Positions 4,689 through 36,138 of a stretch of 64,000 nucleotides of DNA are shown piece after piece. Below the pieces are notes generated by a model, which was given only the letters and a program-made list of their open reading frames with translations, did no database searches and had not been told where the DNA came from. The stretch is from NCBI GenBank assembly GCA_013285645.1, contig JABDHJ010000002.1, forward strand, positions 62,001 to 126,000. The letters run 5' to 3'. Source of the DNA: Verrucomicrobiota bacterium (GTDB taxonomy: Bacteria; Verrucomicrobiota; Verrucomicrobiia; Methylacidiphilales; UBA1321). How positions within the stretch are numbered: the first letter of the stretch is position 1; each line of letters opens with the position of its first letter. The position numbers and the translations under genes were made by a program.

Positions 4689-4719
4689 GGGGAGCGGGTG
4701 ACGAGACTCGAACTCGCGA
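4689..4719. repeat. Left attachment-site repeat of the genomic island (tRNA-Gly 3' end copy)
   Basis: Thirty-one bases are identical to 36062-36092, which hold the discriminator, the 3' acceptor strand and the T-arm of the tRNA-Gly gene. To its left, CCCCTT...AAGGGG (4677-4692) forms the short hairpin expected just downstream of a tRNA. This boundary therefore looks like the original chromosomal side of the tRNA gene displaced by the insertion. An integrase gene starts 128 bp inside. This is the standard picture of integration into a tRNA 3' end. Confidence 0.85.
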
Positions 4720-4793
4720 GTCGGTCTGAGCCCTCTTTCGATTTATAAGTTATTCATAATGAACGTAGGTGAACGTCATGGACAACGGCGGAC

Positions 4794-4815
4794 ATTCTCA
4801 CTATTATTCTCACTT
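4794..4815. repeat. 22-bp inner direct repeat, left copy (probable integrase arm site)
   Basis: This is identical to 36003-36024 at the other end of the island and itself contains TTCTCAC twice (attCTCACTATTATTCTCACtt). It lies 75 bp inside the left attachment repeat, in the leader of the integrase gene. A further pair of GAACGT hexamers 10 bp apart lies at 4761 and 4771. Tyrosine integrases bind such arm sites on both sides of the attP core; the assignment as an arm site is inference. Confidence 0.6.
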
Positions 4816-4846
4816 TGAAGAGACTCGAACTAATTTAGGAGAACAC

Positions 4847-5992
4847 ATGGCAAGCCTTTGGAAACGCAACAATAGTCCGTACTGGGTGTGTTGTTTTACG
4901 GGCCCTGACGGAAGTCAGCTAAAGAAAAGCACGAAGGAATCGAATCGAGGAAAAGCCCTAGCCGTTTGTGTCGAAATTGAGCGCGCTTCACGACTCGGTC
5001 GCCAAGGACAACTGACTGAGGTTCAAGCACGGAAGGTTATTAGCGACATCTATCAGCGTAGTACCGAGGAAAGTCTTCCGTTTGAAGATACCGCTACCTA
5101 TCTGCTTGAATGGGTGAGTTCCAAAGCAGTCACCCGTGCGCCAGGTACAGCTATCCGATACAAACGTATCGTCGAAGAGTTTCTTACGTTTTTGGATAAG
5201 CGAGCAAGTGGGCCACTCTCTGGTATCGTGCCGCGGGACATTACTCGATTCCGGGACGACCAACGACGCCAAGGCAAGAGTGCCGCCAGCGCGAACATGG
5301 CCGTTAAAACACTGCGGGTACCCTTCGCGGTAGCGCGGCGGCACGGACTTATCCTGAGCAGTCCAGCGGAGGCTGTTGAGCTGCTGCCGCCCGACAGCGA
5401 AGTCCGGGAGACCTTCAGCCTCGAGCAACTAACCGCTCTTCTCGCCACGAAGAATATCGAATGGAAAGGAATGATCTTGTTCGGAGCATACTGTGGCCTG
5501 CGCATCGGCGACGCATCTCAACTTACCTGGGCCAACATCGATCTCACAAAGCGTCTCCTGATCTTTCATCCTCAGAAGGTTCAACGATCCAAGCAAAAGA
5601 AAGCTCACGAAGTCCCCCTCCACCCTTCGCTGGAAAAATACCTTCAGGATCTGCCCGGATTGAAAACGCCCAAGGCCCCTATCTTCCCTACCCTCAAGCA
5701 AAAGAAGGTCAGCGGTGTAGGTGGCCTATCTCTGCACTTTCGCAAAGTCATGGTGGCGACTGGAGTGGCCGAAGATGAGAAGGGCGAAAAGAAGGCCGGA
5801 AAGGGGCGACGGTTCTTCGCCCACAGCTTCCACAGCCTTCGCCACACTTTTGTCAGCCTGCTCGCCAACCAAAACGTCTCACGCGAATTGCGCATGAAGC
5901 TCGCCGGTCACACCAGCGATGCTCACGACCGATACACCCACCATGAGATCGAGAATCTCCGGAAATCCATCGAAACCATACCCTCAATTTGA
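4847..5992 (+). CDS. Tyrosine site-specific integrase of the island
   Basis: A protein of 381 residues. The start at 4847 is supported by TAGGAG 6 nt upstream; the frame is open earlier, but that part overlaps the arm-site repeat. Residues 1-60 resemble an arm-binding domain and about 80-180 a SAM-like core-binding domain. The catalytic domain has R219 in 'GAYCGLRIGDASQL', H329-x2-R332 in 'FHSLRHTFVSLL', H355 in 'KLAGHTS' and nucleophile Y363 in 'DRYTHH'. All key residues are present, so the enzyme looks active. It lies next to the tRNA-derived repeat and points into the island, as expected for the integrase that moves this element. Confidence 0.92.
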   Translation: MASLWKRNNSPYWVCCFTGPDGSQLKKSTKESNRGKALAVCVEIERASRLGRQGQLTEVQARKVISDIYQRSTEESLPFEDTATYLLEWVSSKAVTRAPGTAIRYKRIVEEFLTFLDKRASGPLSGIVPRDITRFRDDQRRQGKSAASANMAVKTLRVPFAVARRHGLILSSPAEAVELLPPDSEVRETFSLEQLTALLATKNIEWKGMILFGAYCGLRIGDASQLTWANIDLTKRLLIFHPQKVQRSKQKKAHEVPLHPSLEKYLQDLPGLKTPKAPIFPTLKQKKVSGVGGLSLHFRKVMVATGVAEDEKGEKKAGKGRRFFAHSFHSLRHTFVSLLANQNVSRELRMKLAGHTSDAHDRYTHHEIENLRKSIETIPSI

Positions 5993-9170: not shown

Positions 9171-9587
9171 ACGAGTTTGCGCATGGCGGGAAGAGCAGTA
9201 AATGCTTTCCTGCAATGAGATGCGATGTGAACAATTCTACATTTTCGCGTGTATAAATTCCAGAGATGTCATTAAGTCCATAGATAATAAGCGGCGAATC
9301 ATGTTGCAACTCACTGTAAGCGAAGCAATTGCAGTTGAAAGGAGTGAAATACGGCGGTGCTTTTTCTCGAATTTTACCCAATATAAACCGATGGTCGCGC
9401 GTGTGCGGGCGCGCACGCGAAGCAATTCGTAAGTGTCGATGATCCACGAGGGTTAGAAGCCACCTGTTCAAATAAAGGGGATGATTTCGTCTCCTCTGAC
9501 GTCCTGCTCAAAACGACCGTCTCATAAAACGGACATTTTCTGTGACGACTGGTTTCCGGTTTGCGGGCCCATCCGTATTGTCTAAAA
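9171..9587. other. Intergenic region upstream of the serine recombinase
   Basis: No gene is seen. Imperfect inverted repeats occur at about 9394-9420 (alternating GCGC/GTGC tracts), and a CCGT-N8-ACGG element lies at about 9517-9532. The latter is in the region where a resolvase would have its recombination site. I cannot show that these are res subsites. Confidence 0.3.
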
Positions 9588-10214
9588 GTGAAGGTCGTCA
9601 TTTATGCCCGTGTATCCACAGACGAGCAAACCGTGGAGCAGCAAATTGAATCGCTCCGCGAAGACTGTCGACGGTATGGCTGGGATATTGTCGCAGAGAT
9701 CGCAGATACCATATCCGGGGGCACGTTCTCTCGGAAGGGGCTGGATCAACTTATGGCCCTAGTGCGCCGCAAGAAGATCGATTTGATCATCTGCCATAAA
9801 CTGGATCGCCTGGGTCGGTCGTTGCCTCACCTGGCGCAAATGATCGGCGAATTTGAATCCCATGGCATCGGGTTGTTTATTCCTGGCCAGGGAATCGACA
9901 CGCGAACCAATAATCCGACCGGAAGGCTCCAAATGCATCTGTTAATGGCATTCGCCGATTTTGAACGGGCTCTCATCTCAGAACGGACGAAATTGAAGCT
10001 GCAGGCGCTCAAGAACGCAGGAGTCCGGCTCGGACGCCCTAAGTTGTCGTCGGAAGCTTTAAAGGGCGCTGTGGTCGCTTGCCGGCGTATCCAGGATCAA
10101 ACTGGTCGATCGCCTAGCTGCCGTGCTTTGGCTCGTGAATTAAGTGTATCCATCGGAACCGCTCACCGCCGGCTGAGGTTGATCGCGAACAAAAAGGACC
10201 AAGAAACGAAATGA
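9588..10214 (+). CDS. Serine recombinase (resolvase/invertase family)
   Basis: A protein of 208 residues from GTG 9588 (a TTG at 9561 is an alternative). The N-terminus 'MKVVIYARVSTDEQ' carries the catalytic Ser10. 'KLDRLGRSLPHL' and 'GRLQMHLLMAFADFER' are the standard resolvase active-site and dimer-helix motifs, and 'LGRP' precedes a C-terminal HTH ('SCRALARELSVSIGTAHRRL'). It is full length for a small serine recombinase. It could resolve element multimers or invert DNA; no typical inverted flanks were recognised. It is the second recombinase of the island besides the tyrosine integrase. Confidence 0.9.
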   Translation: MKVVIYARVSTDEQTVEQQIESLREDCRRYGWDIVAEIADTISGGTFSRKGLDQLMALVRRKKIDLIICHKLDRLGRSLPHLAQMIGEFESHGIGLFIPGQGIDTRTNNPTGRLQMHLLMAFADFERALISERTKLKLQALKNAGVRLGRPKLSSEALKGAVVACRRIQDQTGRSPSCRALARELSVSIGTAHRRLRLIANKKDQETK

Positions 10215-13312: not shown

Positions 13313-14041
13313 TCAGACATTCAGGCCTTTGCAGGCTGCGATCCGCTGCAAAAAGATAATTTGGTTTTCGACACCAATTTCCTGCCACTCTGGCTTGCAC
13401 ACTAACTGAAGACGCTCGCCCAAGCGAATCAATAAGCCCCAGCCAGTGGGGACTTCGTGAACTCGTATAACCTCCTCTTCAACGACAAGATAGTGCAAGT
13501 TCGCAATGTGATAGGAAAAGAGGCGATCAAATTTGGTTCCGTGCAATATGCCTCGCTTTGTCATGATAATGTTCTTCACGAGCTTCCGGTAACCTTCATG
13601 CCGATACTCAGGCAAACGGTAATTGTCGAATTCAGGGAACAGTGTTTCCCCCTTAGCTAGGTGAGGAAGATGTACCTGGAGTAGAGTTTCCAACTTGCCC
13701 TTACGTTCTTCGAGCGCCCTTAGCTTTTGTGAAAGCATTTGCCGGCGCTTATTGTCACGGATCAGGTCGCCGCGTACCTGTTTGCATTCAAAGACGGCGG
13801 CAACTTTAAGGACAGATTTAATGCTGACAACGGGGACGCGCGAAGGAACCTTACGCGTCGGAGTGCCCGTGGCGACGTCCACTCGAAATTTTCGATGAGG
13901 AAAGGAGACTTCGGGGGCTGCAATGCACATTCCCTGCTCGCGCGCCCATGCCATTGCCAATGATTTCAGGCTCGCGTGTTTAAGTGTCTCTCCGCGTTTC
14001 GAGGGAATGACGGGCTCGAGGCTGTCGTTTGCCATTGTCAT
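13313..14041 (-). CDS. PD-(D/E)XK nuclease-like protein
   Basis: A protein of 242 residues. 'HASLKSLAMAWAREQGM' leads into 'AAPEVSFPHRKFRVDVATG' and, after a short insertion, 'AAVFECKQVRGDL'. This E ... D-V ... E-C-K order is the core of a PD-(D/E)XK nuclease or MmcB-like fold. The rest has no motif I know. Its start overlaps the stop of the DUF72 gene by 4 nt (genes run 16280 to 13313 on the minus strand), so it is the last gene of a tightly coupled three-gene set. Confidence 0.55.
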   Translation of the reverse strand: MTMANDSLEPVIPSKRGETLKHASLKSLAMAWAREQGMCIAAPEVSFPHRKFRVDVATGTPTRKVPSRVPVVSIKSVLKVAAVFECKQVRGDLIRDNKRRQMLSQKLRALEERKGKLETLLQVHLPHLAKGETLFPEFDNYRLPEYRHEGYRKLVKNIIMTKRGILHGTKFDRLFSYHIANLHYLVVEEEVIRVHEVPTGWGLLIRLGERLQLVCKPEWQEIGVENQIIFLQRIAACKGLNV

Positions 14042-15018
14042 CCCTGCTTCGGTACACTGTCCTCGGCCAAGGCCACTTCAAGCGCGGCAACGATGGTCCA
14101 GGGAGCGCAACCCTCCAAGCGGTTGTTCACGTAAATGTACCTTCGGCGTGCCTTCCCCAAGGCCGACCGGCTCAGTAGCTTCGACAGAGAAAGCCGTGCC
14201 TCTCTGTTGGGTTCTTTGATTTCTGTGTAAGGGGAGAAAGCTTCCACCGCTTGGTTGTAGCTTCTGCCAGGCTTAAGTAGGAATCGGGCCGAGCAAAAGT
14301 CTGCCGTTTCGATTCCGACGATTGCCATTTGCTCGTCAACCGGAGGCATTTGCGTCCAACTGTTGAGCGTATGCGCGACTCGATTCAGGCTTAAGGCTTC
14401 AAAATACCGGGGATGGAGAAAACTCTCATTCCTGATCTCAACCGAATAATCCCATCCCTTGGGAAGCTTATGCAGAAAATCATCCAGGTAGGCCACGAAT
14501 TGCCTTCCTCGTTCCCAATCGTCTGCCCGGAATTGCGAAAACTCAAAGAATAGGGTTCCAATCTGCTCGCGGTAAGGAACCAATGGGGTGAGAAAACTCG
14601 CGACGAACAAATCAACATCGAGAAAGTGCTCATTGAGTTGGCCGGCACGCTTTCCATACCTCGGCAAGTTAGGAAACTTCTTCACCGTGATGTCTTCCGT
14701 CACTTTGATCGACATTCGAAAGTCGGATGGAACCTGCGAGAAATAACCGTCCAAGAGTTTCGCTGTTGGGAACTGGTAAAAGCCAGCATCCAGGCAAACC
14801 GTTTTGAAAGTCTGGGCGTATTCCGCCAGGCAGGTGCGCTGGAAGCGTTCCTTTTGTAGCTTCGGCGGGCTGCCCTTGAAGTAGCGAAGGTACTTCTCGG
14901 GCGAATAGATCAGGCCGAGCCAACCTTCATATTTCCAGGAGGAAGTGCCGATGTAGATGCCTTCTGTTGCCAGCTCGGCTATTCGATTTCTGAGTAGCTC
15001 TTTTGGGAATGTCTCCAT
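14038..15018 (-). CDS. DUF72 (YecE-like) TIM-barrel protein
   Basis: A protein of 326 residues. The start at 15018 is favoured over 15054 because it keeps a 5-bp gap to the upstream gene. 'YIGTSSWKYEGWLGLIY' near the start, 'DFRMSIKVTEDIT', 'FFEFSQFR', 'YSVEIRNESFL' and 'YVNNRLEGCAPWTI' are the ordered motifs of DUF72/YecE proteins. These have a TIM-barrel-like fold and are implicated in iron-sulfur or nucleic-acid-linked chemistry but lack a firm function. It sits between an unknown 418-aa gene and a nuclease-like gene in one operon. Confidence 0.85.
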   Translation of the reverse strand: METFPKELLRNRIAELATEGIYIGTSSWKYEGWLGLIYSPEKYLRYFKGSPPKLQKERFQRTCLAEYAQTFKTVCLDAGFYQFPTAKLLDGYFSQVPSDFRMSIKVTEDITVKKFPNLPRYGKRAGQLNEHFLDVDLFVASFLTPLVPYREQIGTLFFEFSQFRADDWERGRQFVAYLDDFLHKLPKGWDYSVEIRNESFLHPRYFEALSLNRVAHTLNSWTQMPPVDEQMAIVGIETADFCSARFLLKPGRSYNQAVEAFSPYTEIKEPNREARLSLSKLLSRSALGKARRRYIYVNNRLEGCAPWTIVAALEVALAEDSVPKQG

Positions 15019-15023
15019 AACCA

Positions 15024-16280
15024 CTAAAAAAAAACCGGTTTTTCGAATGTCCAATCAAATGGTCCCTTAAAATAGTCCGAGTAATATCGAGAATTAAATG
15101 TTAAGCGGGCTGCGCGTCTTGCTCCTTTTTCAAGTCCCTCCCACCACTTTGGAATGATAACGAAGTGCTCTGAATAGGCTAAGGCAAACCGACAGAGGGC
15201 AGCTGAAAGCTGAACTTGAGGTGTGTCACGAATGGACTCGAGCAGCTGCTGTAGAAGCGCAGACGTTTTAGGTCCAGCGATTAACACAAGGGGTAATCCA
15301 CTTTCAATAGTTATTGTTAGAGAAATCCAATTTTCAAGTCTCGAGGATTTTCGATTAGGTATTGGACGTCCAAGTAAGTCACGAGGGGGAAACAAATTGG
15401 TAGTTGCTAATACGCCTGGAACTCCACTACCTCTCATCCAGCATCCAGATAAAGCTCCATAGCTTTGAGTTTTTATTGACTCATCTAACCAAGGCTTTCC
15501 CATATTGATTTCGCTCAAGTCCAATTCGTTCATCGCATCAAGATTGCGAATGTAATTAACTTGGTCGGCTAGGTTTAGTCGTTCAAATTCTGTAATCATC
15601 TTCTTGAAAAAAGACTTAGAAACCAAACGTACATAGTAGTCTTTGCACAAAGCGCGATAATGGTAGAGAAACACTTGTTCAGGATTTCCAATGAACGGGA
15701 CCGTTTCAATTGGTCTAAATATTGAATTATCGTGGCCGGTACAAAATCCGGTAAAGGTTGTCGCCCTATTCACGCCCAAAAGTTTAAAGTCGGTCAATCC
15801 TTCACTTCGCTCAGCTCTAGGGTTGGGGAAATATACCTTACCGTCTTTGGCGTAAACACGTAACTGAGCTTCTTGTATCGCGTGCGCATGGATAATTCGT
15901 CCTGAACACGGAGTTACCTTTTCTAGGAAACATAGACGAGGAAACGATGTAATGAAATGTCGATGAATTGCTCCCTCGATAGATGGAGCAAGTCTCGAGC
16001 GTTCTTCGTCACTCCTCTTTTGGGTTCCATAAACTCGTCGAAATGTTGTATTACGATTATAAGTAGAGTCTAAGTAGTGAAACTTTTGAAGTATCTTGCG
16101 GATAGGTACGAATCCTTGAACGAACACATCTTCCTCTCCTTGACTTCCAATCAACAGAGGTTTGTCGACATTGAGCGTTTGTCTCTGATCGGCAAAAAAT
16201 GAAAAGAGATGGTTGAGTTCACCTTTCTTCGCCCATCGCTCAATCCGGCGATGCTCTTTCCCCGACAATTTGTGCGCCAT
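15024..16280 (-). CDS. Conserved unknown protein with HAHAIQ / FCTGHD motifs
   Basis: A protein of 418 residues. I recall a widespread family of uncharacterised proteins with this motif order: 'GRIIHAHAIQEAQLR' (residues about 127-141), 'GVNRATTFTGFCTGHDN' and 'IFRPIETVPF' around 175-200, then 'YHYRALCKDYY'. Conserved His, Cys and Asp suggest a metal-dependent enzyme or nucleic-acid-binding protein. It heads the minus-strand operon with the DUF72 and nuclease-like genes, with a 5-bp spacing to the next gene. The DinB-DnaE fusion gene ends 82 bp upstream on the same strand. Function unknown. Confidence 0.6.
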   Translation of the reverse strand: MAHKLSGKEHRRIERWAKKGELNHLFSFFADQRQTLNVDKPLLIGSQGEEDVFVQGFVPIRKILQKFHYLDSTYNRNTTFRRVYGTQKRSDEERSRLAPSIEGAIHRHFITSFPRLCFLEKVTPCSGRIIHAHAIQEAQLRVYAKDGKVYFPNPRAERSEGLTDFKLLGVNRATTFTGFCTGHDNSIFRPIETVPFIGNPEQVFLYHYRALCKDYYVRLVSKSFFKKMITEFERLNLADQVNYIRNLDAMNELDLSEINMGKPWLDESIKTQSYGALSGCWMRGSGVPGVLATTNLFPPRDLLGRPIPNRKSSRLENWISLTITIESGLPLVLIAGPKTSALLQQLLESIRDTPQVQLSAALCRFALAYSEHFVIIPKWWEGLEKGARRAARLTFNSRYYSDYFKGPFDWTFEKPVFF

Positions 16281-16362: not shown

Positions 16363-19300
16363 TCAGCCTAGTGGAACTGATACCTTAAGAACACGCAAAG
16401 TATAACCCCTACGATTTGCAAACGGCTCAACGAATCCTTCCAGCGCTATAACAGGAGATTTGATCGTCTCCATACCAAAGAACTTGTAGACCGCCGCGAA
16501 AAGCTCGGTCTCCACAAACCCGGTATAATCGCAGAGGGAAACAAATTTCATGGGTTGGCCGTCCTCCTGGTGGGCAACACGATCAGCGAAAGTCAGGCCA
16601 CAGATTGTGACTCGCTCACCAAAGTGTTTATCGAGATCGGCTATTCGGCAATATCTGTCCCATGCAATCGAGGGAAAGAGATCGAGAGGATGGCCGCTCA
16701 CCGTGAATCCGAATAGTTCGTGCTCATCTTTCAGGTAATCCAGAAGCGTCGGTTCTGTCAATGGTGCTGTCGGCACTTGAAGCGGACGATCCGCCGAAGT
16801 AAAAAGCATTCCCTGTCCACCGTCATGGGGCCAATCTGCCAATTGTTGCAGATGCCAAAATTGAGTGGTACGGGGCAGGCCGAAACTATCGAACGCGCCT
16901 GCCCTAATGAGATTTTGTCCCTCGACTTTGGTCGGAACCACCCGCTGATAAAAATCGGCCAGGGACACGAAGGGACACCTTTGTAGCTCCTTTTCGATGC
17001 GTTCCTCTGTGTCATCTGCGAGTTCTTTTACCTTCCAAAGGGGCACGCGGAGGAACGCCTGGCCGTCTCGGTATTCGGGATAGAAGTAGCGGCGTGAGGC
17101 ATTCACATCCGGGGAAAGAAAGCCGACCCCCAACCGACGCACTTCCAAGGTGTAAGCGAGCGGATGGTAGAAGCCCTTTTCATTGGTGAGCACCGCGCTG
17201 AGAAATTCCGCAGGATGATAGCGTTTCAACCAGGCCGCTTGGTATGCCTCCACTCCATAAGCGGTACTATGTGCCCTGCAAAAGGCATATCCGTGGAATC
17301 CGTACAGCAATCCCCAAACCGCCTCGATTTCCAGTTGTGTGCGCTCTTTACGAACAGCGTATTTCCAAAACTCGAGACGCATCTTTTCGATCTCGGTCAC
17401 CTTTTCCTTCACAAGCGCACGACGCAGCATGTCCGCCCTACCTGCTGGCATGTCGGCAAACGCTTCGCAGATTTGAAGGATATGCTCCTCATAGGCCACA
17501 ACACCAAAAGTCGACTTCAACACCTTCTCGAGTGAGGGGTGAGTGTAATCAATTTCCTGAAGCCCTTGGGCACGCAGAGCAAAGTCACTCTTGCGGTTCA
17601 TATTCGCCGCCCCTGGCCGAATTACTGAAACAATCGCAATCAGCACGTCGATGTCCTGGACGTTGCACATCTTTTCCAGCGTAATCATGGCTGGCGATTC
17701 AATGTGATGAACGCCCCTAGCGTTGCCCGTGGCAATCATGTCCCAGACCGCGGGATCTTCCCAAGGCTCCAAGGTTTCCAGATCAACTGCGATGCCTCGC
17801 TCGGCCAACATTGCCTTGGTGTCGCGCATAACAGCCAGGCCGCCTTGGGCGAGAATGTCGAGTTTGACCAAGCCGACCGCTTCAACACTATCCATGTCGA
17901 AATGGGTGGTCGGGTAACCTTTCGCGCTTGTGAAGGTAGGACTGTGCTCACGGATAGCGTCACATGAAAGAACCATCCCGCACGGGTGCATCTTCGGATA
18001 CCGGGGGAAGCCATCCAGCATTGCGGCCAGAGTCACCGCCGTCTTTACAGGCTCTTGAGCAAAATCATCGCCTTGGCTTTCCACGCAGTCAGCGACGGCC
18101 TGGGCTATATAGCTGGCGTTAACGTTTGGTATTTGTTCCGTCAAACGACGGACCTGAAAATCCGAAAGTCCTAATACCTTGCCGATTTCTGCCAAAGCAG
18201 ATCGGGCCTGAAAAGTTGAAAAACCACCCACCACTGAGGCGTATGTGGTTCCGAAACGACGAAAGATCAGATCAACGACGTCGTCTTTCCGATCGTGAGG
18301 AAAATCGAGGTCAATGTCCGGAAGCTTGTTAAGGGCCATCCGGTCGCGATTAAGAAAACGCCGAAAGTAGAGATCGAATCGGACCGGGCAAACGCCGCTG
18401 ATTCCCAGACAATAGCAGACGAGCGAATCCGCTGCGCTTCCTCTAGTGATCCATTCGATGCGTGCCCGCTTACATTCCTGGAGCAGATCCCAGACGGTCA
18501 GGAAATACTCCTCATAACCAACCTCGGCGATGATGGTCAACTCCTCCTCTAATTGACGAGCATGCTTGTCTTGGCGTTGTCCATACCGACGCTGCAGGCC
18601 TTCCGTGGCAAGCCTGCGAAGCATCTGGTGCGGTGTACTGCCATCGTCTGGTCGATATGCGGGAAAACGCAGCTTACCGATCTCGAAACGGAAATCGCAG
18701 GCTTCGATTAACTGTTCCATGGCTCTGGTGTCTGTCGGCCATTCGCTTTTGATCGGGAAATGAAAGGAACCACCACGCTTTTCTGGATGCGGCTCGGCCA
18801 GGAGAGTTCTTGTGCGGATGCTCTGTACGATTTGATAGCCCAGCTTCTCCTTAGGAATTCGATACCGAATGGCTGGAAAAGTGGTGTTAGGCAACAGCCG
18901 CAATCCGGCACGATATTCGGATAGTACAGTTGCGGTGAGTTTGGGTTGCGAGAGCAGAAAGCACAGGTTGCGGTAGCCGTCGGCATTTTCGACATAGGCC
19001 AAATGCTGGACACCGCTCACGACTAATTCAGCCCCGAGAATCGATTTGATTCCTGCAGCGACCGCAGCCTGGTAAAAGGGAATTGCTCCATGCAGGTTGG
19101 GATCTGTTATTGCCACCGCCTTGGCGCCAGTCTCAACTGCCAGCCGGACGATCTCCTCGGGCGACAAGAGCGAGTCACCAAACGAGTAATAGCTCTTACA
19201 ATTCAGTGGATGGAAAACAGGGGCGGGTTTGCGAACTGCTGCCACCGATGTAGTAGTGCGACGGTCAGCGGCGCGGTCCAAATCGTTTCGCGGTTTGCCT

Positions 19301-20460
19301 TCCCTCCTTTTCAGCCAAAGTTCAGGCCCGCGCATGACCGCATTGGTGCCATAACGTGCCCGAAGTTCATCAACTGCTTCCGCTAGTCCCTTTTTTTGCT
19401 GATAGGTGTTGGTGGCTGTCGTTAGAGCCAATTCTTGCCGGAAGACACCGCTGTAAATGTTACTCAGCTTTAAGGAGACCAGTCGCAGGCTCACTCGTCG
19501 CTCCCAAGCCTTGGTGACAAGACCTGCGATGATTGAATAAATATCGGTCTCAATGTCGGTCGGCTCTTCCAAACTTCGACTGCGCATTGATTCGCCGAAA
19601 TCATTGTATCTAAGTTTAACCGTTACCGTGCGGATGGTCTTATCGTCGGCACGTACCTTGGTCATGAGCCGATCGGCCATGCCGTGTAACGTGGCCAGGA
19701 CAAAAGCTTCATCAGTCACGTCCTCCCCGAAGGTTTCCTGCGTACCGTAGCTTTGGGCGTCAGGCGAATCCGGAACAATGGGGCGATCATCAATTCCTTG
19801 AGCAAATTTCCAGAGTTGGGGAGCATAGCCCCCGACGAAATAGGAGAGGAGTTCTGGCGAGGTCAGGGCGATTTGCTCAACCCACTTCAGCCCGGCCGCA
19901 TCCAGTGTTTTACCTGCTTTTGGGCCAATGCTCGGCAACCAGCGATTCGGTAGCGGCGCGAGAAACTTTCCTTCCGTGCCGTCTGGCACTTCGATGAAGC
20001 ACCCGGGCTTTTTGAGCTTGGACGCGACTTGGCTAACCAATTTGTTACTGCCAATGCCAAAGGAGGCCGAGAGCCTCAATGACTGCGCTACCGCAGTTCG
20101 GATCGTGTCGGCGATTTCCCGCGTCGGTTTCTTCGTCTGGGATCGGAGATCGAAGTAGCCTTCGTCAATGCTGCCAATCTCCACCTCGGGAGTGAAATCG
20201 TACGCATAGCTGAACATCATTTTGGAAAAATGCTCATACTTGGAAAAGTCTCCAGGGATAACGATCAGTTTTGGGCAAATGCGCTTCGCCTGCGCCGTTG
20301 GCATTGGGGTGTAAACACCCAGCTTGCGGGCCTCGTAACTGGCCGAGGCGATGATTCCCCGTTTAATGCCACCGACAGCAACAGCTTTACCGCGAAGTCG
20401 TATATCTGCAGCCTGCTCGCATGAAGCGTAGAAAGCGTCGGCATCGAGGTGAATAATCAC
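16363..20460 (-). CDS. Y-family (DinB) + C-family (DnaE-like) DNA polymerase fusion
   Basis: A single open frame of 1365 residues from GTG 20460. Residues 1-~390 form a complete Y-family polymerase: 'HLDADAFYASCE' with the first metal-binding Asp, the second acidic pair in 'GSIDEGYFDL' (D99, E100), HhH region and little-finger domain. A linker (~390-415) leads to a bacterial PolIII-alpha-like part. Its PHP domain starts 'LNCKSYYSFGDS...AITDPN' (metal His and Asp replaced, so probably inactive). The palm has 'PDIDLDF' (714-720) and 'LVKLDILA'; an OB-fold ends the protein. All catalytic Asp of both polymerases are kept. It follows the UmuD-like gene by 9 bp. By analogy with UmuDC and ImuB/ImuC, this is a translesion mutasome in one chain. 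Confidence 0.9.
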   Translation of the reverse strand: MIIHLDADAFYASCEQAADIRLRGKAVAVGGIKRGIIASASYEARKLGVYTPMPTAQAKRICPKLIVIPGDFSKYEHFSKMMFSYAYDFTPEVEIGSIDEGYFDLRSQTKKPTREIADTIRTAVAQSLRLSASFGIGSNKLVSQVASKLKKPGCFIEVPDGTEGKFLAPLPNRWLPSIGPKAGKTLDAAGLKWVEQIALTSPELLSYFVGGYAPQLWKFAQGIDDRPIVPDSPDAQSYGTQETFGEDVTDEAFVLATLHGMADRLMTKVRADDKTIRTVTVKLRYNDFGESMRSRSLEEPTDIETDIYSIIAGLVTKAWERRVSLRLVSLKLSNIYSGVFRQELALTTATNTYQQKKGLAEAVDELRARYGTNAVMRGPELWLKRREGKPRNDLDRAADRRTTTSVAAVRKPAPVFHPLNCKSYYSFGDSLLSPEEIVRLAVETGAKAVAITDPNLHGAIPFYQAAVAAGIKSILGAELVVSGVQHLAYVENADGYRNLCFLLSQPKLTATVLSEYRAGLRLLPNTTFPAIRYRIPKEKLGYQIVQSIRTRTLLAEPHPEKRGGSFHFPIKSEWPTDTRAMEQLIEACDFRFEIGKLRFPAYRPDDGSTPHQMLRRLATEGLQRRYGQRQDKHARQLEEELTIIAEVGYEEYFLTVWDLLQECKRARIEWITRGSAADSLVCYCLGISGVCPVRFDLYFRRFLNRDRMALNKLPDIDLDFPHDRKDDVVDLIFRRFGTTYASVVGGFSTFQARSALAEIGKVLGLSDFQVRRLTEQIPNVNASYIAQAVADCVESQGDDFAQEPVKTAVTLAAMLDGFPRYPKMHPCGMVLSCDAIREHSPTFTSAKGYPTTHFDMDSVEAVGLVKLDILAQGGLAVMRDTKAMLAERGIAVDLETLEPWEDPAVWDMIATGNARGVHHIESPAMITLEKMCNVQDIDVLIAIVSVIRPGAANMNRKSDFALRAQGLQEIDYTHPSLEKVLKSTFGVVAYEEHILQICEAFADMPAGRADMLRRALVKEKVTEIEKMRLEFWKYAVRKERTQLEIEAVWGLLYGFHGYAFCRAHSTAYGVEAYQAAWLKRYHPAEFLSAVLTNEKGFYHPLAYTLEVRRLGVGFLSPDVNASRRYFYPEYRDGQAFLRVPLWKVKELADDTEERIEKELQRCPFVSLADFYQRVVPTKVEGQNLIRAGAFDSFGLPRTTQFWHLQQLADWPHDGGQGMLFTSADRPLQVPTAPLTEPTLLDYLKDEHELFGFTVSGHPLDLFPSIAWDRYCRIADLDKHFGERVTICGLTFADRVAHQEDGQPMKFVSLCDYTGFVETELFAAVYKFFGMETIKSPVIALEGFVEPFANRRGYTLRVLKVSVPLG

Positions 20461-20469
20461 GGCACATCC

Positions 20470-20865
20470 TCATGTCTTGCGGAAAACGGCCACAACGACC
20501 CCTTGAATGACTAATTCCCGCGCGGGAATGATGTCAGGGTATTTCGGATGTTCCGCCCGCAAGAAAGGTATTCCGCGCCTCATGAAGTACCGCTTCAAAG
20601 TCGACTCACCATCAACCAGCGCGGCTACAACCGCACCGTCATGGGCGGGCTTTAATTCGAGAACAACTGTATCTCCATCTAGAATATGCGCTCCAATCAT
20701 GGAATTGCCCCGTACTCGTAGGGCGAACATCCGAGCGGTGGGACTGATACCAATGGTCGAGAGATCGACCGCGATACATTCAGGTTCGATTTCTTCGCTT
20801 CTGGCGGGTAGCCCTGCAACAACTTCGCCACAAATGGAAATAGAAGTAAAATCCCTTTCGAGCAT
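20470..20865 (-). CDS. UmuD-like S24 self-cleaving protein
   Basis: A protein of 131 residues from ATG 20865 (an ATG 9 nt upstream is an alternative). It has no HTH domain, so it is UmuD-like rather than a LexA repressor. The cleavage site A17-G18 lies in 'EVVAGLPA', nucleophile S55 in 'GNSMIGAHILDGD' and general base K91 in 'ESTLKRYF'. It lies 9 bp before the fusion-polymerase gene, whose ribosome site GAGGATG overlaps its end, so both are one operon. Expected role: RecA-activated self-cleavage switches on the polymerase after DNA damage. The frame is open upstream to 21156, but that part runs through the promoter region and carries no motif. Confidence 0.88.
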   Translation of the reverse strand: MLERDFTSISICGEVVAGLPARSEEIEPECIAVDLSTIGISPTARMFALRVRGNSMIGAHILDGDTVVLELKPAHDGAVVAALVDGESTLKRYFMRRGIPFLRAEHPKYPDIIPARELVIQGVVVAVFRKT

Positions 20866-20872
20866 AAAGATC

Positions 20873-20902
20873 ATTATATGGGCGTATAAGTGGCAGATAC
20901 AA
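20873..20902 (-). promoter_or_regulatory. Promoter of the umuD-like / polymerase operon
   Basis: On the minus strand TTGTAT (20897-20902) and TATAAT (20873-20878) are separated by 18 bp. With this -10 box the transcript would start at or next to the ATG at 20865, implying a leaderless mRNA. I could not identify a clear LexA operator; a GTAA-ATG-TTAC palindrome further out (about 20952-20962) is the only dyad seen. Confidence 0.4.
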
Positions 20903-21022: not shown

Positions 21023-22783
21023 ATGAAATTCGAGCTGCTTACAAACGTTCTGAAGAAGCACGGCCTAAAAGGCCCAACATTTCGTGCACTTGAGCCTGAT
21101 TCGCAAACATACGACATTCTTGCTCTCCAGCCAGGAGGGCGCATTGCGGTTAGCAAAACTTTTATAGGCCATGAAAATTATGTGGAGTCACATGCTAAAC
21201 TGACTTCGTACCTCTCCTTAGCTATTGACCATGAACTTGATTTAGTGCTGTCTCCGGAATATTCCTTGCCTTGGAAGGTCTTCGGTGAATTTATTCAAAA
21301 ACAAAGACTCCCAGCTTTAGGAAAACTCTGGGTATTGGGTTGTGAGTCAATCACACCTGAGGAACTAGAAGCGTTTGTTTTGGCCACCAAGACGATTGTG
21401 AAATGGATATATGAACCAGTGCCTCGAACTTCAGGGCATTTTCTGGATGTGCTCGCTTATGTTATGCAAGTTCCATCTCAGGACGGAACTCCTACGAATG
21501 TCATTTTGCTGCAATTTAAAACCCAAGCCATGGCCGATAAGAGCCAGGCGTTTGAGCGCAATAATCTGATAGTAGGAACAACGACTTATTTAATTAACAA
21601 TGAAGACGACACTATCCGACTAATTTCCTGTATTTGCTCCGATGCCCTTGGATTTCAACCCCCCATTCAGCCCCCCTTTCGACTCGATCTACATCCTTAT
21701 TTGGTATTTCACCCCCAGCTTAATATTGAGCCGAGAAATACTCAGATTCGAGCATATCGACAGCAAATGTTCGCGGGACAAACCAGCGAGCGCGAGGTCA
21801 TCACTTTAAATTGGGCGCGAAACTTTGTCCTTGTTAAAGACGACAAGCACTTGAAAAGCGCATATGGAGGTTCAGCCATTTACTCTCAAGCGGACAATTT
21901 CAATCTCACGGACGAGCGAATCGAATCGAATCATGTAAAGGGGCTCTATTATTGCAACTGGAAGGATCAACGAACACATCTCTGTTATTTCAATTTTGAC
22001 GAGCACGTATTCTATTTCCGCATGCCGAAGGTAAAGCAGTACGTAGCCGGACCTCTCCACAATCGAAGCGGACCCGAAATGATCTCCACTCTTGAGTGGG
22101 ATCAGACCCACTCGGAATGGAAGGAATGCAAGGTCGCCATGGATGGCTACAAAGCCTTTTGCACCGGCTTCCAAGAAGAAAAATGCGATTACTATCTCGA
22201 TAGTAAATATTCTGCTTTAGACAGAGAAAGACTAGTAGCAATTTCAACAGGCACGCTAATCCCCCAAAAGAGATGGTACCATATCAGTGATCTAGATTCT
22301 TACACAGCAGAGTCTGACGAACGATCGAAACGCTTCACTTTCACGCACGAAGAAACCAGAGAGTCTAAAGCATTTCGACGTAAATGCATGTTGCGATTTA
22401 TAGCTCTCCAAAAAGAAATACTTGCCGAGCCTAATCTATTTCCTCCGCAGATCGAAGATCTACGTAACGATTGTGTACTAAAGCCTCCTCAAAAACTAAC
22501 GGACTATCGCATAAACTTGACAAGCAAATCTGGGGCAGCACAGGGCGCTACTGTAATGTTTATTGGAGATGAACAGCAACGGGAGGCGAAGCAATTGCGA
22601 GACAGTCTGATGGCGAAATGGGGAGAAAACGAAAAAGATCCGGAAATGGGAACGCTTATCAGGCGAATTGTGGTTTGGTATCGAGAGAATTCCGCGATCA
22701 AGAGTGTGCATACTCCAACACCAATGATTGATGATACCCTAGAAACGCCTACAACGATAACGAGAGGAAATCCACATGAATAA
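21023..22783 (+). CDS. Nitrilase-superfamily-like protein, partner of an SMC-like ATPase
   Basis: A protein of 586 residues. The N-terminal ~280 residues resemble a nitrilase fold: 'DLVLSPEYSLPW' places Glu79, 'ILLQFKTQA' places Lys166, and 'LISCICSDALGF' places Cys203/Cys205, followed by 'LVFHPQLNIEPRN'. This matches the Glu-Lys-Cys order of C-N hydrolases. The C-terminal ~300 residues are unknown. The stop overlaps the next gene by 8 nt, so the product is made together with a Rad50-like ATPase. The pair is more A+T-rich than its neighbours. A hydrolase effector coupled to an SMC ATPase resembles the layout of Lamassu-type defence systems; function is inferred from that analogy only. Confidence 0.65.
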   Translation: MKFELLTNVLKKHGLKGPTFRALEPDSQTYDILALQPGGRIAVSKTFIGHENYVESHAKLTSYLSLAIDHELDLVLSPEYSLPWKVFGEFIQKQRLPALGKLWVLGCESITPEELEAFVLATKTIVKWIYEPVPRTSGHFLDVLAYVMQVPSQDGTPTNVILLQFKTQAMADKSQAFERNNLIVGTTTYLINNEDDTIRLISCICSDALGFQPPIQPPFRLDLHPYLVFHPQLNIEPRNTQIRAYRQQMFAGQTSEREVITLNWARNFVLVKDDKHLKSAYGGSAIYSQADNFNLTDERIESNHVKGLYYCNWKDQRTHLCYFNFDEHVFYFRMPKVKQYVAGPLHNRSGPEMISTLEWDQTHSEWKECKVAMDGYKAFCTGFQEEKCDYYLDSKYSALDRERLVAISTGTLIPQKRWYHISDLDSYTAESDERSKRFTFTHEETRESKAFRRKCMLRFIALQKEILAEPNLFPPQIEDLRNDCVLKPPQKLTDYRINLTSKSGAAQGATVMFIGDEQQREAKQLRDSLMAKWGENEKDPEMGTLIRRIVVWYRENSAIKSVHTPTPMIDDTLETPTTITRGNPHE

Positions 22784-25700
22784 GTCCTCTACGATCGAAT
22801 TGTTGGAAAAATACTATTCTAACATCGAATATACTACCACCGATGTTGTTAGAGCTGAGAGAAAGTTTAACGAATCGATAATAGCTGTTTCGTACTTTGA
22901 TTTTACTGATTCGCTATCAAATCCAACGTTTAACATTTCCAGCTACGTTCAAAAAACAATCGCGACAGATTTTTATAAGAATGAGGGGTCCCTACAATGG
23001 AATTACTATCTTTATTTTGTTCTCGAATCAGCGGCGTTTCAGCGGATTCGTGCCAAAGGTGTAGTCGATCGCATTGAAAAAGATCGGGCGTTTGCTAGAA
23101 AATTTGTTCGTGAACAAAAAATTCTCAACCACGAGCTCGCACTTCCAGTACTAAACGCTCTTAAGCCGGGTGGATCTGTTCGGGACCTTGCGTCCAAGTG
23201 GACAGAAGAGCTTGCCGAGGCATCCCTAGGAGCAATCGCTGAAGGAAATGAGGCTTACACGCGTGTCATCGATAACTACCTTTCTGCTGAAACGAGCAAA
23301 ACGAGACAAAAACGTGTTTCGGAGCCTCGAACAAGCTCCGTAGCGAATGGAAAATTCATTACTGCCCTAAAGTTGGATACATATAGAGTGCACCCCGCTC
23401 AACGAGCTTTCGAATTCGGAACCGTTAACCTGTTTCGAGGTGTAAATGGGGCGGGCAAAACATCCTTGTTGGAAGCGATCGAGCTTTGCATTTGCGGGGC
23501 CAATCGTCGTAATGCAGACGCTAAAGAAATTGGATCTAAAATAGAGATCACTTTTGATGGAAGTTCAATCCCCGACATTTGTCCCAAGGGTCCACCCAAT
23601 TTATACAGAGAAAGAGATGGCGCATGGTATGGCGGTTATTACCGCCACGGAAACCGACTCTATGATAATTTCGGACGGTTCAATTTCTTTAACTCCGACG
23701 CAGGTTTTGAGCTAACTTTGGCGAAAGACAGTGATTCGGTCGAAAACGCGGTTCAAGCCATGGTGTTGGGAGAATACGCAAATGGAATTCAAGAACGCAT
23801 GCAAAAGTGTCAGACGAAATTCCTTGAAATAACTCGTGATAATGCTCGGCGTAAGTCTGCTTTTGAAAAAGAACTTAAGAGCGCGGTTGAAGGGCTCAAT
23901 CAACTTAAAAAGGTGAAGGATACGCGTGAAGCCCTAACGAGCGAATTGCGACAAAAGGCAAAAGATTGCGGATGGCGACGATTGCCGTCACAGGTTGACT
24001 TTGAGAAATTGACGGTACTGCGAGAGACCGTGGCAGAAATAGAGGCTGGAGGTGAAAGCGATCTTAAGAGGTTGTCTTGGCTTTCCGAAGCTTCCATTTC
24101 ATTTCTCCGACGGGCAGAAAAAAACATTACGGAGCAGCTACGACGTTTTCATTTATTAACAAAGCAGGACCAATCCGCTTCGACCGAGCTTGAGGACTTG
24201 AAAAAGCAACTCGATGGAAACAAAGTCCGCGTTCAAATTTTGGCGCGATTGACCCAATATGCATCAGATTCGTCTGCACAAACTTTGATTGGCCTGCGGG
24301 AACGTCGTTCGTCGTGCCAGACACGATTAACTCAACTAACGGAATGTGCCCGGCTGTTACAAGGCATTGATATTAATAATTATGGAGATATTGCCGGAAC
24401 TTTTACACAAATTATCTCAGCTCTGAAGGTGGAGGTAGCGCAAAGAAAAAAAAGCACACAGAAAGAACAAGAGCGCATGGCAAGCCTTCAAGAACAACTT
24501 GGAGAGCTTCGCTCTCTCGTTCAAGACATCCGAGCCTCAGGCAGACATTTTTGCGCCATTGCGCCTGGCGCCGCTGAATGCCCTCTTTGCGGTAGTACAG
24601 ATGACAACAAAACACTCTTAGCAAGAATCACCTCACTTAAGATTGGTACTGAATTGGAGCAATTATTGCGTGAGCTGAAATCCAAAATTACTCATGATTC
24701 GGGTGAACTCCTAAAGTTAGAGACGCGATTGACTCACTATTTGAGAATTCAAGAGGCTTCAATATTGATCTTTGAAGCCGAAAGCTTACTTGAAACCAGG
24801 GCTAGCGAATTAATTCGTAAGCTTGGAGCAATTCCAAGCGATTTGGAGAAAGAGAAATCATCTTTCGATTCCATGACGATCAAGGAGAAGGAGCTGCGTC
24901 TTAAGGGCTTCACTCAAAATGAGTATGAAAAAATATTGGAAGATGGAAAACGCCTGTTGAAGACTGGTGTTCCCAAATTGATTCAAGTTGCGGAAGTAAA
25001 AAAACTTTTCACTTCGGCGCGTGCATTGGATGTTGAGTCAGCAAAGCAAATCATACTAGTAGAACGAAAACGCGAAGATTTGAAAGTGAGCATCCGGGAA
25101 ATAACCAATCAGTTGATTGGAAGCCGCCGAGTAAGTGATTTTAATGAGATTGAAAAAAGGCCAATTGTTATCCGAGATGTTCTCTCTCAAATAAACCAAC
25201 GGTCCCGTCTTTTTGATGTTAGTGAAACTGAAGACTTATTATCCGCTCAAAACCGTCTTAAGGGATTTGCTAAGACGGTGGAACGCATTCGACAAGCGAT
25301 TAAACAGGTAGATGAGCGAGACGCTTTTGAGGAACATTTTACTGAAGTTGCCAATAAAGCGCGTTCTCAATTGGCAACTATAAGTCGAGAAGCACAATTG
25401 CTTAACCGTGCAAACTCTTGCCTCGAACGCCTACTGTCCCCAGTCTATAAGGACGCATTTCTCGAGTCTATAAATGAAAGCCATAAAACTCAGCTTCAGA
25501 CTATCTTTTCCTATATTCATTCCCCACGAGAATTCGACAGTATATCTCTAGGGCGTCATATAAGTCTCAAGCGTTCTACAGGTACTGCTTCCGAAATTTC
25601 AGAAATAAGCACCGGGCAACGGGCCGCCTTAGCGATGTCGATTTTCCTCAGTCTTAATAGTAGCGTAGTCGAGAAGGCTCCATGGCTCCTTTTTGATGAT

Positions 25701-25880
25701 CCTGTCGCTCATACTGATGATCTCAATATTTTGTCATTTTTGGACATTTTGAGGGATTTGGTGATTGACGGACGGCGTCAATTATTTTTCGCGACCGCGA
25801 ATGCAAAAATCGCTGACCTTTTCTCGAAAAAATTTGATTTTTTAGGGAATAAATTCAAACAGTTTTCACTACAGCGTTAG
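22776..25880 (+). CDS. Rad50/SMC-like ATPase with zinc hook and extra N-terminal domain
   Basis: A protein of 1034 residues, start supported by GAGAGG 8 nt upstream. About 190 N-terminal residues ('QWNYYLYFVLES', 'IEKDRAFARKFV') precede the ATPase and look like the small middle-component domains of ABC-type conflict systems; this is a tentative resemblance. Walker A 'RGVNGAGKTSLLEA' is at 221-234. Long coiled coils flank a zinc hook C602-x2-C605 ('ECPLCGST'). The ABC signature 'ISTGQRAALAMS' is at ~945, and Walker B 'WLLFDDPVAHTDD' at ~970. All ATPase motifs are intact. With the nitrilase-like partner it forms a compact two-gene cassette, probably a DNA-sensing defence system. Confidence 0.82.
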   Translation: MNKSSTIELLEKYYSNIEYTTTDVVRAERKFNESIIAVSYFDFTDSLSNPTFNISSYVQKTIATDFYKNEGSLQWNYYLYFVLESAAFQRIRAKGVVDRIEKDRAFARKFVREQKILNHELALPVLNALKPGGSVRDLASKWTEELAEASLGAIAEGNEAYTRVIDNYLSAETSKTRQKRVSEPRTSSVANGKFITALKLDTYRVHPAQRAFEFGTVNLFRGVNGAGKTSLLEAIELCICGANRRNADAKEIGSKIEITFDGSSIPDICPKGPPNLYRERDGAWYGGYYRHGNRLYDNFGRFNFFNSDAGFELTLAKDSDSVENAVQAMVLGEYANGIQERMQKCQTKFLEITRDNARRKSAFEKELKSAVEGLNQLKKVKDTREALTSELRQKAKDCGWRRLPSQVDFEKLTVLRETVAEIEAGGESDLKRLSWLSEASISFLRRAEKNITEQLRRFHLLTKQDQSASTELEDLKKQLDGNKVRVQILARLTQYASDSSAQTLIGLRERRSSCQTRLTQLTECARLLQGIDINNYGDIAGTFTQIISALKVEVAQRKKSTQKEQERMASLQEQLGELRSLVQDIRASGRHFCAIAPGAAECPLCGSTDDNKTLLARITSLKIGTELEQLLRELKSKITHDSGELLKLETRLTHYLRIQEASILIFEAESLLETRASELIRKLGAIPSDLEKEKSSFDSMTIKEKELRLKGFTQNEYEKILEDGKRLLKTGVPKLIQVAEVKKLFTSARALDVESAKQIILVERKREDLKVSIREITNQLIGSRRVSDFNEIEKRPIVIRDVLSQINQRSRLFDVSETEDLLSAQNRLKGFAKTVERIRQAIKQVDERDAFEEHFTEVANKARSQLATISREAQLLNRANSCLERLLSPVYKDAFLESINESHKTQLQTIFSYIHSPREFDSISLGRHISLKRSTGTASEISEISTGQRAALAMSIFLSLNSSVVEKAPWLLFDDPVAHTDDLNILSFLDILRDLVIDGRRQLFFATANAKIADLFSKKFDFLGNKFKQFSLQR

Positions 25881-26214: not shown

Positions 26215-27828
26215 CTATGGCAATGGGGGTAAATACAGCTCTTCGAGGAATTTATTGTGTAGGGCTTTGGCGGTTTTGATTTCTTCCTCGATGGCCACCA
26301 ACTCGGCGTGAGTCGCTCCCAAAACGATCTCTTCTTCCGTTTGCGCGGTACTGATGTAACGAGAAATGTTCAGGTTGAAATCGTTCCTTTTGATCTCCGT
26401 CATCTCGACCCTGCGGGAGTAGCGGGGCTCTTCATCACGGTTTTGGTAGGTCTTAATGATCTTCTGGATGTGCTCCTTGCTGAGCTGGTTCTGGCGCTTG
26501 CCTTTCTCGAAATGCTCGGCGGCGTTGATGAAGAGCACGTCGTCGGGCTTCTTGCATTTCTTGAGCACGAGGATGCAGACGGGAATGCCGGTGGAATAAA
26601 AGAGATTCGCGGGCAGGCCGATGACAGTGTCGATGTGACCGTCTGTGAGCAGCTTGGTGCGGATGCGTTCCTCGGCACCGCCCCGGAAGAGCACGCCGTG
26701 CGGCAGGATGATCGCCATCACGCCTTCGTCTTTGAGGTAGTGGAAGCCGTGTAGCAGGAAGGCGAAGTCGGCGGCGGACTTGGGGGCCAGCCCGTGGCTT
26801 TTGAATCGCACGTCGTCGGCCAGCGCGTCGGTCGGTTCCCAGCGATAGCTAAAGGGCGGATTGGCGACGATGGCGTCGAAAGAAGGCTTCTTGGCCGGAT
26901 TCGGCTCGCGCATAATGTCCCACTCGTTTAGCAGGGTGTCACCGTGGAAGATTTCGAACTCCGTGTCCTTCAACCCGTGCAGCAGCATGTTCATGCGTGC
27001 GAGGTTGTAGGTGGTGATGTTCTTCTCCTGACCAAAGATTTTGCCGATGGTGCCACCGGCCTTGTTCACCTTCTTGCGGACGTTGAGCAGCAGGGAGCCG
27101 GAGCCGCAGGCGAAGTCCATCACACTTTCCAGCCGCTTCTTCGCCCCGGTCTTCGGTTCCTGGCTGTCGAGTGTCACGATGGCGGAGAGGATGTCGGAAA
27201 TCTGCTGCGGGGTGTAGAACTCGCCCGCCTTTTTGCCTGACCCGGCGGCGAACTGGCCGATCAGATATTCATAGGCATCGCCCAGTGCGTCGATCTGGGT
27301 AGAGAACTCAGCCAGGCCCTCGGCGATCTTCTGGATGATGGTGCAGAGCTTGGCGTTCCGGTCCGGGTAGGTCTTGCCGAGCTTGGGAGAACTCAGATCA
27401 ATCTCGGAGAAAAGGCCCTGGAAGGTGCTCTCGAAGGATTCTGTCTCGATGTATTTGAAGCCCGCTTGCAGCGTGTTCAGCAGGTCCGCGTTCTGAGTGC
27501 GGGCCAGGTTGGCGATGCTGTTCCACAGGTGATCTGGCTTGATGACGTAGTGCGTCTTGCGGCGCATCTGCTTCTCGAACTCCGGGATGTCGTCCCCGTT
27601 GTTGGCATACCAGAGCGATAGCGGTACCTTGCGCGTGTCACCGCCTACATCTGGGTAATCCCGTCCCAGTTCCTTCTTAGCCGCCGTCTCGTAATTGTCG
27701 GAGAGGTAGCGCAGGAAGAGGAAGGACAGCATATAGTCGCGGAAATCGTCCGCATCCATGGCTCCGCGCAGTTGGTCGGCGATGCTCCAGAGGGTGCTGC
27801 CAAGTTGTTTTTGGTTGGTGTCGGTCAT
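26215..27828 (-). CDS. hsdM: Type I restriction-modification methyltransferase subunit HsdM
   Basis: A protein of 537 residues. The N-terminal helical domain ('QLGSTLWSIADQLRGAMDADDFRDY', shortened in the genes' family as the HsdM_N type) precedes the N6-adenine methylase core: 'GEFYTPQQI' (203-211), the SAM loop 'VMDFACGSGSLLLNV' (236-250) and catalytic 'NPPF' (323-326). It adds methyl groups to adenine in the bipartite target read by HsdS. It is the last gene of the minus-strand unit hsdR-hsdS-(PrrC-like)-hsdM and starts 5 bp after the ATPase gene. It is full length, with motifs intact. Confidence 0.95.
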   Translation of the reverse strand: MTDTNQKQLGSTLWSIADQLRGAMDADDFRDYMLSFLFLRYLSDNYETAAKKELGRDYPDVGGDTRKVPLSLWYANNGDDIPEFEKQMRRKTHYVIKPDHLWNSIANLARTQNADLLNTLQAGFKYIETESFESTFQGLFSEIDLSSPKLGKTYPDRNAKLCTIIQKIAEGLAEFSTQIDALGDAYEYLIGQFAAGSGKKAGEFYTPQQISDILSAIVTLDSQEPKTGAKKRLESVMDFACGSGSLLLNVRKKVNKAGGTIGKIFGQEKNITTYNLARMNMLLHGLKDTEFEIFHGDTLLNEWDIMREPNPAKKPSFDAIVANPPFSYRWEPTDALADDVRFKSHGLAPKSAADFAFLLHGFHYLKDEGVMAIILPHGVLFRGGAEERIRTKLLTDGHIDTVIGLPANLFYSTGIPVCILVLKKCKKPDDVLFINAAEHFEKGKRQNQLSKEHIQKIIKTYQNRDEEPRYSRRVEMTEIKRNDFNLNISRYISTAQTEEEIVLGATHAELVAIEEEIKTAKALHNKFLEELYLPPLP

Positions 27829-27833
27829 TAGAT

Positions 27834-36002: not shown

Positions 36003-36024
36003 ATTCTCACTATTATTCTCACTT
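36003..36024. repeat. 22-bp inner direct repeat, right copy (probable integrase arm site)
   Basis: Identical to 4794-4815 and also preceded by a similar CGGCG-AC block. It lies 38 bp inside the right attachment repeat. The paired placement at both island ends, internal to the tRNA-derived repeats, is what integrase arm sites flanking attP would give after integration. Confidence 0.6.

Positions 36025-36061: not shown

Positions 36062-36138
<77 letters not shown>

Follow-up and report, generated by a model that had tools for sequence, protein, structure and literature searches.

The stretch of DNA analysed here (the window) comprises 64,000 nucleotides of contig JABDHJ010000002.1 from the Verrucomicrobiota assembly GCA_013285645.1, and carries on its minus strand a two-gene operon in which a gene for an S24 autoprotease (20470..20874) ends 9 nt upstream of a gene encoding two DNA polymerases in a single chain (16363..20460). 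The polymerase gene starts with GTG and forms one stop-free frame of 1365 aa, which a first-pass annotation of this DNA had read as a complete Y-family polymerase joined to a C-family polymerase. Profile matches, alignments and structure models all bear out this composition, with Pfam matches above the curated cut-offs to IMS (5-148) and IMS_C (236-335) in the front half, and to PHP (419-507, weak), DNA_pol3_alpha (612-871), the finger domain (875-1038) and HHH_6 (1111-1199) in the back half. The Y-family core of DinB type occupies residues 1-335 (19456..20460, minus strand), with catalytic residues D6, D99 and E100 and Y11 as the steric gate, and scores 260 bits against the NCBIfam profile of DNA polymerase IV versus 73 bits against that of UmuC, the cut-off of which is 431. 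It is followed by a RecA-N-terminus-like motif with a conserved tail, recognised by profile match and conservation (residues ~342-386, LAEAVDELRARYGTNAVMRGPELWL; 19303..19437, minus strand), a linker (residues 392-411; 19228..19287, minus strand) and the C-family polymerase of DnaE2 type (16363..19227, minus strand), which consists of a degenerate PHP domain, a palm with PDIDLDF at 714 and KLD at 866, fingers, HHH and an OB-fold end. NCBIfam identifies this half as DnaE, the profiles stopping at ~1045-1052 of ~1150 positions, after the OB-fold region, as they do in DnaE2, and no NCBIfam profile match to a tau-binding C-terminal domain was obtained past that region.

Scanning a single genome for each GTDB species returned 58 loci; the scan patterns were peptides of the window protein, so that distant fusions in other phyla may be missed. 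When related genomes are included, both halves share one open frame at 55 distinct loci, at full length in 42 of them (43 list entries, L001 and the window being one locus). These full-length fusions are stop-free and 48-61% identical to the window protein, they include that of the isolate Brevifollis gellanilyticus, and all fusion records come from Verrucomicrobiota or from unclassified or PVC metagenome-assembled genomes (MAGs), one of which, JAIPJY01, holds three copies (L015, L024, L054). The first-pass annotation had itself raised the concern that the frame might be an assembly artefact, and two-gene versions with adjacent or overlapping genes do occur (e.g. L096), as would be expected if an assembly error or a frameshift had joined two neighbours. 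This explanation, to which we assign a negligible probability, is already refuted by the recurrence of 42 distinct stop-free fusions in independent assemblies, one of them an isolate genome, and by the congruent placement of both halves in phylogenetic trees. In an even draw across the phylum, a match at E <= 1e-150 was found in 5 of 388 genomes, including that of the window, and the fusion gene is therefore an accessory gene of patchy distribution. A phage origin was considered and rejected, as viral contigs hold no relative of the full chain and phage records match the DnaE half only. A plasmid origin of the fused form was likewise discarded, since a DNA search of plasmids with the Brevifollis gene was empty and plasmid protein matches were to two-gene systems. 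Two further loci deserve mention. In a member of the window's genus (G005, L114:2973-4766), the fusion gene is 88% identical up to PolY residue ~259, where it breaks, and its frame runs on into histidine-kinase/receiver-like sequence, marking a decayed or misassembled copy. Another genome (G063, L113:1789-5271) encodes a stand-alone DnaE2 of ~40% identity that branches just outside the fusions, and no PolY gene was found within 8 kb of it.

Alignment of the 42 full-length fusions to DinB and DnaE of Escherichia coli showed that the acidic catalytic residues are kept in both polymerases, as the first-pass annotation had claimed. In the Y-family half, D6 and E100 are present in 42/42 and D99 in 41/42 fusions (one has E), and the equivalents of DnaE D401, D403 and D555 are present in all 42. 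The loss of the PHP metal ligands was also correctly noted, the ligands being degraded in the window protein, but it is not a peculiarity of this chain, since degraded PHP domains are the general rule for DnaE2 proteins (PMC12926913). Purifying selection acts on both halves, with dN/dS values (Nei-Gojobori, 14 related pairs) mostly of 0.03-0.10 in PolY and 0.07-0.17 in DnaE2, and higher values in the tail and linker. Conceivably, only one half polymerises, in that DnaE2 would synthesise DNA while PolY served mainly as an adaptor binding the clamp and RecA, or the reverse, the fusion then being a device for stoichiometry and recruitment. ImuA-ImuB-DnaE2 works in this way, with inactive ImuB as the hub (PMC6511836, PMC12926913), and the RecA-like motif of the window chain does sit on PolY. 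However, ImuB differs from the fusions in that two of three Y-family carboxylates are gone, the residues of the reference sequence being R, D and G, and the constraint on PolY is equal to or stronger than that on DnaE2. We thus regard a single working half as rather unlikely and favour two sites that would both be active.

The arrangement of the two halves was modelled with AlphaFold2 in two overlapping parts from an alignment of 35 fusions. The model of residues 1-640 reached a mean pLDDT of 86.6 and a pTM of 0.42, and that of residues 409-1365 a mean pLDDT of 89.4 and a pTM of 0.86, with structure matches to DinB, Dpo4 and Dbh in front and to Pol III alpha/DnaE1 at the back. Since the linker is predicted to be disordered (pLDDT 33-42) and the pTM of the first part is low, the model does not fix the position of the halves relative to each other. 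The linker varies in length and sequence, and its disorder and poor conservation, together with the split halves of some relatives within the same order, would also be compatible with cleavage of the chain in or near the linker after translation, releasing separate PolY and DnaE2 in equal amounts. Yet the linker alignment contains neither a conserved protease site nor an intein, and the insertions in other fusions are changes in loop length; an intact chain is accordingly preferred, and cleavage appears very unlikely. An intein was also sought in the longest open reading frames (ORFs; 1500-1590 aa) and dismissed, as their insertions are scattered over the loops and none exceeds ~85 residues at one place.

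Several short motifs suggest how the chain could be recruited. Residues 356-380 (LAEAVDELRARYGTNAVMRGPE) align with the N-terminus of RecA from the same genus (LELALQAIAKEYGDGSIMRLGD) at a profile probability of 73.5 (E 3e-5, for one comparison), compared to at most 3.3 for non-overlapping control segments of the chain. Such a motif is known from PolYs (PMC6511836), and the window chain may bind RecA through it. The clamp-binding consensus is matched on the DnaE2 side by QGMLF at 1216, whereas QELAL at 342, ahead of the RecA-like motif, is a weaker candidate. The RecA-like motif is followed by the conserved tail RGHDLWL. As this tail is altered in those Chthoniobacter-type fusions that have no S24 gene nearby, we infer that it is a candidate binding site for the S24 protein.

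The S24 gene, identified by the Pfam S24 domain, PDB matches and alignment, encodes 134 aa if translated from the ATG at 20872-20874 (MIFMLERD...) and 131 aa from the ATG at 20865. The first-pass annotation had described a UmuD-type protein with an A17-G18 cleavage site, S55 and K91 (131-aa numbering), and these residues are as stated and identical in 45/45 partners. Its closest PDB relatives are LexA proteins (51 bits), with UmuD' at 32 bits; a match to polyubiquitin was discarded, as it arose artefactually from adding up repeats that were each below the threshold. In about 20 fusion operons the partner has the full LexA DNA-binding domain, and about 25 partners, including that of the window, lack the helix-turn-helix (HTH). 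In the S24 tree, three HTH changes are needed, at least two of them on well-supported branches, and the HTH-less protein of the window groups with a relative that bears the HTH and not with the forms from Verrucomicrobiaceae. Judged by its sequence, the window S24 protein derives from LexA by loss of the DNA-binding domain and is not a UmuD in the classical sense, and the UmuD-like partner of the first-pass annotation thus stands as regards its autoprotease residues, but not as regards its ancestry.

Regulation of the operon was examined through its promoter sequence. TGTTC-N4-GAACA, reportedly the LexA motif of V. spinosum, occurs without mismatch upstream of 22/25 HTH-less partners versus 0/20 HTH-bearing ones, mostly ~78 bp ahead of the S24 core (counts leave out the duplicate L091/L117 and take L036 as HTH-bearing; many loci are closely related, so that the counts are not independent). 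The window itself has no such site, and its matches are fewer than expected by chance; a genus-specific box was therefore searched for. In the genus of the window, the palindrome TRTAC-N4-GTAYA abuts the lexA start in 7/7 genomes, including the window's own, and precedes recA in 6/7. The operon of the window begins with TTATAC-GCCC-ATATA-ATG (20872-20889), in which TATAC-GCCC-ATATA (20875..20888, minus strand) is a predicted LexA box abutting the S24 ATG, and the congener with the broken fusion gene has the perfect TATACTTTTGTATA. This box is the only site with at most one mismatch in the 64 kb (0.18 expected), and random 100-bp stretches contain such a site in 2% of cases. Since a palindrome of the genus recA/lexA type abuts the S24 start, the operon is very probably regulated by LexA, and S24 translation probably starts at the ATG at 20872-20874 rather than at 20865. 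Neighbours of SOS type at other loci, namely SRAP (10 loci), a GIY-YIG protein (6) and DUF72 (7), also point to SOS control. Across L122-L139, the genus palindrome shares its 5-N4-5 geometry with TGTTC-N4-GAACA and differs in its letters, as would result from operator drift within the phylum. Other 5-N4-5 palindromes (TGTCCATTTGGACA, TATCCATATGGATA, CGTTCATTTGAACG, TGTACATATGAACA and TATTCATCTGAATA) lie at or near the start of operons that encode their own LexA-type partner (L018, L023, L026, L025, L034, L057, L046), and it is possible that repressor and operator drift together in such operons.

The distribution of these boxes also bears on the role of the S24 protein. Its main task could be transcriptional control of the operon, exerted as a repressor of LexA type or what is left of one, and it would then not serve the polymerase in the manner of UmuD, as some 20 relatives keep the full LexA DNA-binding domain at the same position and the HTH-bearing relatives do not have the host box TGTTC-N4-GAACA. 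On the other hand, the window protein and about 24 other partners have no DNA-binding domain and nevertheless keep the A-G, S and K residues found in all 45, and the HTH was lost at least twice independently. Because the HTH-less partners have the host box in 22/25 cases, repression seems to have passed to the host while the autoprotease residues were retained. A purely regulatory S24 protein is hence unlikely in our view, and a UmuD-like partner remains the preferred explanation.

With respect to ancestry, the fusion halves form one lineage in the PolY tree and one in the DnaE2 tree. In the latter, which contains few reference sequences and flagged long branches, the fusion DnaE2 is sister to the DnaE2 encoded on plasmids of Bacteroidota and Desulfosarcina, and this group is separate from DnaE1 as well as from one ImuB-linked DnaE2 (SH-aLRT 99). 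The two-gene relatives comprise dinB-dnaE pairs on plasmids of Emticicia, Adhaeribacter and Chryseobacterium and a lexA-DUF72-PolY-DnaE cassette in Desulfosarcina.

The operon lies within a mobile element, as proposed by the first-pass annotation, which had not noted the attachment repeats that mark it as an integrated island. A 31-bp attachment repeat inside a tRNA-Gly(GCC) gene (gene 36064-36138, minus strand; repeat 36062..36092) recurs as an identical copy of the 3' end of this tRNA at 4689..4719, 50 bp from a tyrosine recombinase gene of the phage integrase family (4769..5992, plus strand). A tRNA gene, a direct repeat of its 3' end and an integrase at the opposite end thus delimit an island of 31.4 kb (4689-36092) that contains the polymerase operon. 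A second repeat pair of 22 bp lies inside both ends (4794-4815 and 36003-36024), and a resolvase is encoded at 9561-10214. Chthoniobacter-type fusions sit among conserved neighbours, e.g. an MnmG/GidA-like gene (identified from its sequence), so that both chromosomal and mobile forms exist. Downstream of the operon, a DUF72 protein (14038..15054, minus strand) is a recurrent neighbour of the cassette and accompanies the two-gene version on the Desulfosarcina plasmid as well; it is flanked by two genes (15024-16280 and 13313-14041; 418 and 242 aa) that could be assigned to no family and have no counterparts at any of the loci. On the other side, adjoining the operon, a divergent pair (21023-25880) encodes a protein of 586 aa that belongs to no family and an SMC/RecF-like ATPase of 1034 aa that has matches of LmuB and ABC-3C type, possibly a defence system that shares the intergenic region with the LexA-box-like site. 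Farther along the island, a type I restriction-modification operon (26215-33317) has a PrrC-like gene between its methylase and specificity genes, likely an anticodon-nuclease back-up to restriction.

Taken together, the operon probably encodes an SOS-controlled, mobile, single-chain translesion polymerase, in which the DnaE2B-PolY mutasome would be fused into one protein and assisted by a UmuD-like partner of LexA descent. Several observations weigh against this interpretation. The LexA box of the window has one mismatch and is deduced from promoters rather than from binding, and the window genome is 66% complete, recA not having been recovered in it. The clamp-like motifs differ among the aligned fusions. 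Some fusions have no S24 gene within the stretch examined (e.g. L008, L012, L016, L038, L043, L056, L048), so that not every fusion can depend on the S24 protein. Within the window's order, one family has the halves as separate genes, with an opposite-strand CrcB-like gene between PolY and DnaE2, or PolY alone, and the fusion is hence not indispensable. In a careful DnaE2 tree the split members are nested within the fusions (96/94), but a clade of fusions only also passes an approximately unbiased (AU) test (p-AU 0.36); a later splitting of the fusion is a likely origin of these members.

If the operon works as proposed, DNA damage would lead to RecA filaments that inactivate the host LexA and derepress the operon from the box at its start. 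The HTH-less S24 protein would then cut itself at Ala-Gly with its Ser/Lys dyad and act as a UmuD'-like partner, as its residues suggest. The clamp would bring the polymerase to the stalled primer end, most plausibly via the QxxLF-type motif on the DnaE2 side, which varies in relatives, and a RecA protomer could dock on the RecA-N-terminus-like motif. With two active sites on one flexible tether, the Y-family half might insert opposite the lesion and the non-proofreading DnaE2 half extend, with no dissociation between the steps. Alongside restriction genes and others that resemble defence genes, the island would carry the polymerase as a cargo for adaptive mutagenesis or damage tolerance. More tentatively, and with somewhat more doubt than confidence, we suggest that one polypeptide thereby unites two active polymerases, one from the Y and one from the unrelated C family, which perform insertion and extension in cis without exchange, licensed by an S24 protein that on at least two occasions arose as a UmuD-like factor from the LexA repressor of the operon itself. 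Polymerase swapping at the stalled fork is an open question, and here an insertion-type and an extension-type polymerase are tied together with both active sites kept, so that a single purified protein and two of its point mutants would suffice to test the two-step bypass model. Moreover, the S24 partners provide a natural series from a full LexA-type repressor (host box missing) to an HTH-less UmuD-like form (host box present), along which a repressor may become a polymerase factor, and carriage on a tRNA island implies that a damage-inducible mutator can move between lineages.

Among known systems, Pol V (UmuD'2C) likewise has an S24 autoprotease gene that immediately precedes the gene of a Y-family polymerase of SOS type carrying a RecA-N-like motif, but the Y-family half of the window chain is DinB/Pol IV-like rather than UmuC, and a second polymerase replaces the UmuC tail. 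The S24 protein differs from UmuD proper in its LexA ancestry, with HTH-bearing LexA-type orthologues at the same position, and from the LexA repressor in having no N-terminal winged HTH. ImuA-ImuB-DnaE2 also combines a Y-family member with DnaE2 under SOS control; there, however, the Y-family member is ImuB, an inactive protein with an ImuB-C domain, whereas the Y-family half of the window is intact and in one chain with DnaE2, and no ImuA gene lies between the examined integrase-side ORFs and the operon. The cassette on Desulfosarcina ovata plasmid Do28_1 (annotated record) similarly assembles a LexA-type S24 gene, DUF72, PolY and DnaE on a mobile replicon, with PolY and DnaE as separate genes and 24-33% identity to the window. 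The first-pass annotation had considered only UmuD2C and ImuB with ImuC/DnaE2 as known systems and thereby overlooked the Bacteroidetes type (e.g. in Cellulophaga algicola), in which PolY and DnaE2B are encoded by neighbouring genes; it was called unusual for its two apparently active polymerases (PMC6511836, section 17), was named DnaE2B-PolY-RecA (PMC12926913, section 20) and is regarded as a putative mutasome (Timinskas and Venclovas, 2019, PMC6511836; Timinskas et al., 2026, PMC12926913). The full texts of these two papers and of the others searched, supplementary tables aside, make no mention of a PolY-DnaE fusion; the parts list is already known, while the single chain and the LexA-to-UmuD-type partner appear to be undescribed in that literature. 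Like the Bacteroidetes type, the window chain combines a PolY with an intact active site, a DnaE2 with an equally intact active site and a degenerate PHP that groups with DnaE2B as a sister, and a RecA-N-like motif. In contrast, the Bacteroidota proteins are two chains from two genes with ~30% identity to the window, and their neighbours are a LexA-like HTH regulator or SRAP, whereas the window operon has its S24 gene directly upstream. In conclusion, since its halves form one chain and not separate subunits, the window polymerase is a variant of DnaE2B-PolY(-RecA) rather than a plain member.

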